Shown here piece by piece: positions 33,669-35,126 of a stretch of 64,000 nucleotides of DNA (its first letter is position 1; each line of letters begins with the position of its first letter). Where the stretch lies: contig JBBFKT010000003.1 of the NCBI GenBank assembly GCA_037482015.1, positions 116,645 to 180,644 on the forward strand. Direction: 5' to 3'. The notes beneath the pieces were generated by a model. The model was not told the origin of the DNA and did no database searches. It was given only the letters and a program-made list of their open reading frames with translations. This DNA comes from Thermodesulforhabdaceae bacterium (GTDB lineage: Bacteria; Desulfobacterota; Syntrophobacteria; Syntrophobacterales; Thermodesulforhabdaceae). A program made the translations under genes and the position numbers.

Positions 33669-33721
33669 CTATTTCCTCCTTGTTTGGTTTTAATTATACA
33701 CAATAAGCCCCACTTACAAAT

Positions 33722-33757
33722 AAAAAGCCACGAAAGTCTATATAAGACCTTCGTGGC
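33722..33757 (-). terminator. intrinsic terminator downstream of the CARF-RelE gene
   Basis: On the minus strand GCCACGAA pairs with TTCGTGGC (8 bp) plus a further 4 bp after one mismatch, ending in GGCTTTTTA. It separates the CARF-RelE gene from the TonB receptor gene. The reverse reading also has CTTTT, so it may act in both directions. Confidence 0.8.
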
Positions 33758-33914
33758 CCTTTTGTGCGACTTCAGTCAGCTTTTACAAGGGATTTAATAA
33801 CAAATAATAAATTTTTCGGTCAATAATCCTAAAGCACTAAAAAATTCTTATTTCTTTCAAAATTGCGAGAATTGCCTTAAAAATCCTATTTTGGCTATAA
33901 GATAACTTTCCAAG

Positions 33915-35030
33915 CTATCTTAGTTTCTTTCCTAGAAACCTTATCTCAAATCGTTTGTTGTTATTATCGTAAACTCCATAAATTCTTCTGGCATCCTTAT
34001 CACTCCAGGCGTAAATCTCGTGAGTGCACCCTTCCACAGGATTACCCACCAGCTTTTTACAACTCAGAGAGTCCGGATTTGGATGGTTATCGTCTTCAAG
34101 ATATCTTGCCAGTTCATCCATTCTCTTGTTAAGTTCATATAGACGATCTTTTTCAAGATCTCTAACTTCTTTCTCGAACTTATCGAACCCCTGGTAAAAA
34201 GTAATCCTATCAGAAGGTGGCTCCCAAAACCGCTCTTCGTAAATGTCTTTCTTTATTTGATTCCATACCAATTCTCCCCAGGGAGATAAAGTCACCTCCT
34301 TTTCGTAGAAGAAAAGAAAAGCATCCGAAATTCTCGAACACTCTGAAGGAGTTATAGCTAGATTCAAAGCCAGCCTTCTCCAAGTTCTCAAATTATTTCG
34401 GACTTCATCTTTTACATCTAGCTTTATTGGAAGACGAGGGAAGCGGAGAAGTTCATCGCTTTTTTCAAATACGTAAATTGATTCATCCGCATAGAATTGC
34501 GAAATAGTATGGAGAACTCCCTGAATACTTTTAAAGCCGCCTGTTAAGTTAAAAACAATTCTATATTTGTTTTCTCTGTAGCCTGGGAGAGTTTCGTGAA
34601 GTCGCTTTATTAAATCTGTTACGGCAATATGAAAGTCATACAAATTATCCGTAGAAAGACCTGTAATGTCGTTCCATATCATCATACGTTTAATGCCATT
34701 ATTTTGCAACCAGCTGCCAATAATAGCCGTTGTTTCCTTGCCTAACAGAGTGTCCGTGGCCAATAGAATGTGCTCATCGTTTTTACCTTTTTCTAACTTT
34801 CCCTTGTAAAATTTATATAATCCGTTAATTTCCGCAGATCTTCCCGCTGCTTCCTCAGGTAATAATCTGGTAAAGTCTTGCTTTATATTTTCCACGTATT
34901 CTATAACCTGCTTGTCTTCAATTTTTTTGGCATTGGCATACTTTTTTATAAGGCTACTAATCTCCTCTGGTGCATTATTCGTCAATATACTGGTTCCACA
35001 AGGAGACAAAACAAGCCTTCTTTCTTCCAT
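33915..35030 (-). CDS. orphan CRISPR-associated CARF-RelE protein (Cami1-like)
   Basis: 371 residues. The N-terminal 200 residues look like a CARF domain of the APE2256/Card1-like type: LVLSPCGTSILTN at the start and IVFNLTGGFKSIQGVLHTI, the ligand-loop motif, near residue 165. A helical linker follows. The last 85 residues look like a RelE/ParE toxin: FEKEVRDLEKDRLYELNKRM, KKLVGNPVEGCTHEIYAW, RRIYGVYDNNN, FEIRFLGKKLR. CARF-RelE proteins (Cami1) are cyclic-oligoadenylate-activated, ribosome-dependent mRNA cleavers of type III CRISPR immunity. No cas10, other cas gene or repeat array is in the window. AGGA lies before ATG. Confidence 0.82.
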   Translation of the reverse strand: MEERRLVLSPCGTSILTNNAPEEISSLIKKYANAKKIEDKQVIEYVENIKQDFTRLLPEEAAGRSAEINGLYKFYKGKLEKGKNDEHILLATDTLLGKETTAIIGSWLQNNGIKRMMIWNDITGLSTDNLYDFHIAVTDLIKRLHETLPGYRENKYRIVFNLTGGFKSIQGVLHTISQFYADESIYVFEKSDELLRFPRLPIKLDVKDEVRNNLRTWRRLALNLAITPSECSRISDAFLFFYEKEVTLSPWGELVWNQIKKDIYEERFWEPPSDRITFYQGFDKFEKEVRDLEKDRLYELNKRMDELARYLEDDNHPNPDSLSCKKLVGNPVEGCTHEIYAWSDKDARRIYGVYDNNNKRFEIRFLGKKLR

Positions 35031-35043
35031 TTTTCCTAATTAA

Positions 35044-35126
35044 CCAAACAGTGCGAAAATACACACAGTTTGGGCTGGAGTATTTGTAGTCCGCCTCTTC
35101 AGGGCTTCCCGAACTCCAGCAGGCGG
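35044..35126 (-). ncRNA. candidate structured leader RNA of the CARF-RelE gene
   Basis: On the minus strand, ending 13 bases before the start codon, three helices are possible. CCGCCT (35126-35121) pairs with AGGCGG (35096-35091). GCTGGAGT (35120-35113) pairs with ACTCCAGC (35081-35074). A third hairpin, CCAAAC/GTTTGG (35073-35044), abuts the second. The first two helices interleave, so they form either a pseudoknot or two alternative folds. No known riboswitch class matches by eye. The element fills much of the 192-base gap after the ECF operon. Confidence 0.5.

Follow-up and report, generated by a model that had tools for sequence, protein, structure and literature searches.

Which signal can be answered by a CARF-RelE effector whose gene stands apart from any CRISPR locus? 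This question is raised by a gene on contig C3 of a Thermodesulforhabdaceae bacterium, within the 64,000-nucleotide stretch of DNA analysed here (C3:116645-180644, hereafter the window; the assembly comprises 2.7 Mb in 32 contigs). A first-pass annotation, made from the sequence itself, described the product as an orphan, Cami1-like protein without a CRISPR locus, which might respond to a CRISPR system encoded in trans or have been recruited to a different nucleotide signal. Our analysis favours the former: in all likelihood, the protein is a type III CRISPR ancillary effector encoded away from the source of its signal. Because no type III gene is present near the open reading frame, the link between this effector and type III immunity is made by the genome and not by an operon.

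The gene and its product

The open reading frame (33915-35030, minus strand) is intact, begins with ATG and encodes a protein of 371 amino acids, the sole member of its family in the genome. Reading of the sequence upstream of the ATG reveals a likely ribosome-binding site, AGGA (35034-35037, minus strand). The leader measures 192 bp and contains, directly 5' of the start codon, a 30-bp imperfect palindrome, CCAAACAGTGCG...CACACAGTTTGG (35044-35073), that was recognised by RNA folding, has no second copy in any other fetched locus according to a pattern search, and is a possible operator or hairpin. Between the CARF-RelE gene and the downstream gene, RNA folding and an inverted repeat delineate an intrinsic-terminator-like hairpin (33721-33762, minus strand) whose 18-bp stem leads into a U-rich stretch (minimum free energy z of -4.6 for the surrounding 101 nt), which would end the transcript ahead of the receptor gene. 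The leader and terminator proposed in the first-pass annotation are thus present, and its account of the flanks was accurate: genes for CobN, CbiQ and an ABC-ATPase lie upstream and a TonB-dependent receptor gene downstream, all on the same strand. An Rfam scan around the gene for cobalamin or other riboswitches returned no match up to an E-value of 0.1, a sigma-70 scan of the leader found no promoter better than chance, and neither the leader nor the downstream intergenic DNA matched other fetched DNA.

A RelE-type toxin–antitoxin module was rejected, as no separate small antitoxin-type open reading frame was found beside the gene on the same strand. Base composition does not mark it out as foreign (GC content of 38% vs 43% for the window, with GC3 within the range of its neighbours). 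An empty-site search in same-genus and same-family genomes recovered CobN homologues just 31-37% identical, so that there is no orthologous neighbourhood for comparison and insertion of the gene is not demonstrable.

The PADLOC CARF7--CARF_RelE model PDLC01934 covers residues 4-369 of the protein (E 1.6e-113), and three regions can be distinguished. The CARF ligand-binding domain (residues about 1-205; 34416-35030, minus strand) is defined by the Pfam model Cas_APE2256 (PF09651; residues 64-200, E 5.7e-27), by conserved columns among 68 relatives and by structural matches to Sis0811 and Cami1. It is followed by a winged-helix-like linker (residues about 206-266; 34233-34415, minus strand), assigned from the AlphaFold2 secondary structure and included in the alignments with the same two proteins, and by a RelE-fold toxin domain (residues about 267-371; 33918-34232, minus strand), assigned from the domain model, structural matches and conservation. 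The full-length AlphaFold2 model, built from the 68-sequence alignment, reached a pLDDT of 95.7 and a pTM of 0.89. Its top Foldseek match was Cami1 (8phj chain X, bound to cA4 and the 70S ribosome; E 3.6e-14), and VIA aligned residues 5-371 of the model with residues 2-347 of the same Cami1 structure (Z 20.1; 328 residues, rmsd 6.3 A). Sis0811 and SSO1393, both Crn1-type ring nucleases, ranked next. Modelled alone, the C-terminal 106 residues gave a pLDDT of 96.3. Foldseek placed HigB, YoeB and RelE toxins first for this domain, with E-values that are modest (none below 0.007), whereas in VIA the best match was YafQ (Z 9.1, 87 residues, 3.2 A), and RelE-superfamily proteins made up all but one of the 50 entries listed. 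The RelE fold of the C-terminus is demonstrated by predicted structure and not by sequence: the RelE/ParE signature that had been read there has no counterpart in a Pfam RelE match, either in this protein or in the RelE part of the family as a whole. Since CARF and RelE folds were both found in the models, the CARF-RelE identification stands. A Crn1 ring nuclease, in which the CARF domain lacks an effector domain, is ruled out by the RelE domain. The protein is a full-length CARF-wHTH-RelE effector of the ordinary Cami1 type, a newly described member of a known family.

Residues G12, S14, S65-A66-E67, T94, G97, F160-N-L-T163, G165-F-K167, R218, N301 and R349 are invariant in the 68 relatives, and T336-H337-E338 and A341-W342 almost so. 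The window protein and its operon-encoded orthologues share the same CARF ligand residues, and S14 and K167 occupy the positions of S12 and K169 of Sis0811, the residues changed in the variants whose structures were solved (7pq6 and 7pqa). A histidine within the last eight residues is found in 61 of the 68 relatives (a count that includes the truncated L047, whose His sits elsewhere), but is missing from the window protein, which ends in GKKLR. By analogy, this histidine may correspond to the terminal catalytic His of YoeB- and YafQ-type toxins. E. coli RelE itself relies on Lys and Arg in place of a terminal His. Lacking this His, the window protein could serve as a naturally occurring variant in studies of how the RelE active site of such effectors works.

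Type III systems in the genome and beside the relatives

The window contains no CRISPR array and no match to RAMP, Cas10 or Cas1 proteins, as the first-pass annotation had it. The genome, however, harbours two arrays, two cas1 genes and four type III loci, so that the CARF-RelE gene is an orphan in the local sense only. One array has 104 repeats with a period of 66 bp (C1:74-81 kb; L130:4100-11100) and adjoins cas1, and the other has 13 repeats (C3:90-91 kb) with cas1 near. The type III loci were found by RAMP and Cas10 searches and then annotated with PADLOC; weak PF22335 matches (about 20-40 bits) were set aside as probable GGDEF cyclases, since E. coli also gives such matches. An intact GGDD cyclase motif is present in the Cas10 of three of the four loci, whose complexes could in principle produce the activating signal. 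The first of these, a III-B locus at C3:64-71 kb, carries a Csx1-type CARF-HEPN and a Card1-like CARF nuclease alongside; it shares a contig with the CARF-RelE gene and, about 76 kb away, provides the nearest type III-associated genes. The second is a III-A locus at C1:286-294 kb, in which a CARF-HEPN effector is fused to a Csx20 ring-nuclease domain (L015:10344-12038). The third, also III-A (C1:196-204 kb), includes Cas6 but no recognised CARF effector. The HD motif is missing from its Cas10 (LHNL instead), and csm3 runs over two overlapping frames (L016:8172-8992; C1 about 200.2-201.0 kb), a break that may reflect real inactivation or a sequencing error; unless it is an error, the complex may be inactive. 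In the III-C locus on C9 (L014:5782-13049), which a transposase-like open reading frame adjoins, Cas10c lacks the GGDD motif. The CARF-RelE gene lies outside all of these loci, placement within them being usual but not obligatory for such effectors.

The nearest relatives, 55-58% identical and of the same length and motifs, are encoded by Thermodesulfatator autotrophicus (L047), Thermosulfurimonas dismutans (L048) and related metagenome-assembled genomes (L046, L049), and form one clade with the window protein (support 1.0). Their genes belong to III-A or III-B operons, with csm5 or cmr6 as a neighbour, whereas the window gene stands alone, and L046, L048 and L049 have the C-terminal His that the window protein lacks, the L047 sequence ending early near a contig end. 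In Thermodesulfatator and Thermosulfurimonas, the III-A genes next to the CARF-RelE copies are closer to those of the effector-less III-A locus than to those of the other III-A locus; for example, the Cas10 beside these copies matches with an E-value of 5.9e-54 vs 3.2e-18. The neighbour of the L046 orthologue instead resembles the III-A locus at C1:286-294 kb, and L049 has a III-B neighbour.

With each species represented by a single genome, a wider scan yielded 119 relatives, of which 80 were fetched. Core type III genes occur in the fetched DNA of 51 of these 80, and type III genes occur in the genome or fetched DNA of 73; no RAMP match was obtained for five, and two were left out of the whole-genome search. 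Further stand-alone copies exist, e.g. L054 and L067, whose contigs carry RAMP genes at distances of about 135 and 27 kb. Across 395 genomes of the phylum, RAMP genes were detected in 20 of 22 carriers of CARF_RelE-model matches vs 119 of 373 others (Fisher p 3.7e-8), a count that ignores relatedness and in which most carriers are weaker, more distant CARF7 matches; with the six strong matches alone, RAMP genes accompany five (p 0.02). A relative of about 38% identity (L026) is encoded in genome G083, reported to be 99% complete and devoid of RAMP matches; it has a stronger claim to true orphan status than the window gene.

Probable signalling in trans and its alternatives

According to the account in PMC11229360, cA4 binding to the CARF dimer of Cami1 activates its RelE domain, which cuts mRNA in the ribosomal A-site. 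By analogy, a Cami1-like mechanism triggered in trans is likely for the window protein. On detecting foreign RNA, the Cas10 of at least one type III complex encoded elsewhere in the genome would produce cyclic oligoadenylate, most likely cA4. The messenger would diffuse and bind a presumably dimeric CARF domain, and physical linkage to a type III locus would be unnecessary because the messenger diffuses. Binding would activate the C-terminal RelE domain to cut mRNA in translating ribosomes, which would slow growth during infection. The CARF domain probably degrades its own ligand and limits the response, self-limitation being likely since the Synechocystis homologue degrades cyclic oligoadenylate and the Ser and Lys positions of Sis0811 are kept. 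The best candidate partner is the III-A locus at C1:196-204 kb, in which no CARF effector was recognised. Hoikkala et al. 2024 (PMC11229360) report an over-representation of cyclase-positive loci without effectors in genomes that carry several type III loci.

Signalling in trans is supported by the architecture, fold and conservation of the protein, by the GGDD Cas10s and arrays of the genome, by the operon linkage of the relatives and by co-occurrence. Against it count the lack of type III genes near the open reading frame, the csm3 frame break in the effector-less III-A locus, the absent C-terminal His, the absence of a Cami1-like C-terminal extension and RAMP-less carriers such as G083. Three other explanations must be weighed. 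The chief role of the protein might now be to lower cyclic oligoadenylate, as a ring nuclease or messenger sink, with a RelE domain that is weakened or dead, as could be argued from the invariant S14 and K167, from the missing His and from the CARF-RelE protein Sll7062 of Synechocystis, which cleaves cyclic oligoadenylate but no RNA in vitro (PMC9676260). Ribosome-dependent cleavage, however, would escape assays on naked RNA, and the RelE domain is intact, confidently folded in the model and conserved in R349 and T-H-E. The lost His also weighs less in view of E. coli RelE, with its Lys and Arg, and we consider this explanation improbable.

Still less probable, and to the same degree, are a recruitment to a non-CRISPR nucleotide signal and a decaying relic. 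As a true orphan sensor-toxin, the protein would fit a window devoid of type III genes, the few relatives in genomes where RAMP genes were not detected, and the CRISPR-unlinked CARF genes known in every CARF family (PMC4012209), but this is hard to reconcile with three GGDD Cas10s in the same genome, with CARF ligand residues that are the same as in operon-encoded orthologues and with the strong co-occurrence of carriers and type III genes; the different nucleotide signal envisaged in the first-pass annotation accordingly has no support, and the CRISPR system in trans that it offered instead is well supported. A gene left behind by a former type III operon and now drifting might be suspected from its separation from type III genes, the frame-broken csm3 of the most similar III-A locus and the loss of the His. 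Such drift sits poorly with an intact open reading frame in which all invariant CARF and RelE columns are kept, with 54-58% identity to close orthologues, and with the gene's own Shine-Dalgarno-like site and terminator.

Signalling in trans remains the preferred explanation, and the locus provides a specific example on which the action of a type III effector in trans can be tested, in a genome with four type III loci of which one is effector-less but cyclase-motif-positive. That type III loci signal to one another in this manner has been suggested on statistical grounds (PMC11229360). More speculatively, and on balance doubtfully, the HD-less, effector-less III-A system could depend on the distant CARF-RelE protein, one pool of diffusible messenger linking several loci to an effector that is regulated on its own, acts on the ribosome and has a RelE active site without histidine. 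The remaining interest of the protein lies in this possible sharing of effectors between loci and in its variant RelE tail.

Comparison with characterised CARF proteins

The mRNA interferase Cami1 (PDB 8phb, 8phj) is the best full-length structural match of the window protein, in line with the Cami1-like label of the first-pass annotation, and contains CARF, winged-helix linker and RelE domains in the same order, at about 17-19% sequence identity. The two proteins differ in several respects. The window protein falls in the PADLOC PDLC01934 group and is encoded outside a type III locus; it stops at the end of the RelE domain, whereas the solved Cami1 chain runs past aligned residue 347 and the residues beyond have no counterpart. 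The Crn1-like proteins Sis0811 and SSO1393 have the CARF and winged-helix fold and the catalytic Ser and Lys positions in common with the window protein, but lack a RelE domain. The CARF7 CARF-RelE protein SyCsm6 (Sll7062) of Synechocystis has the same architecture as the window protein and, in contrast to it, is encoded in a III-D operon.
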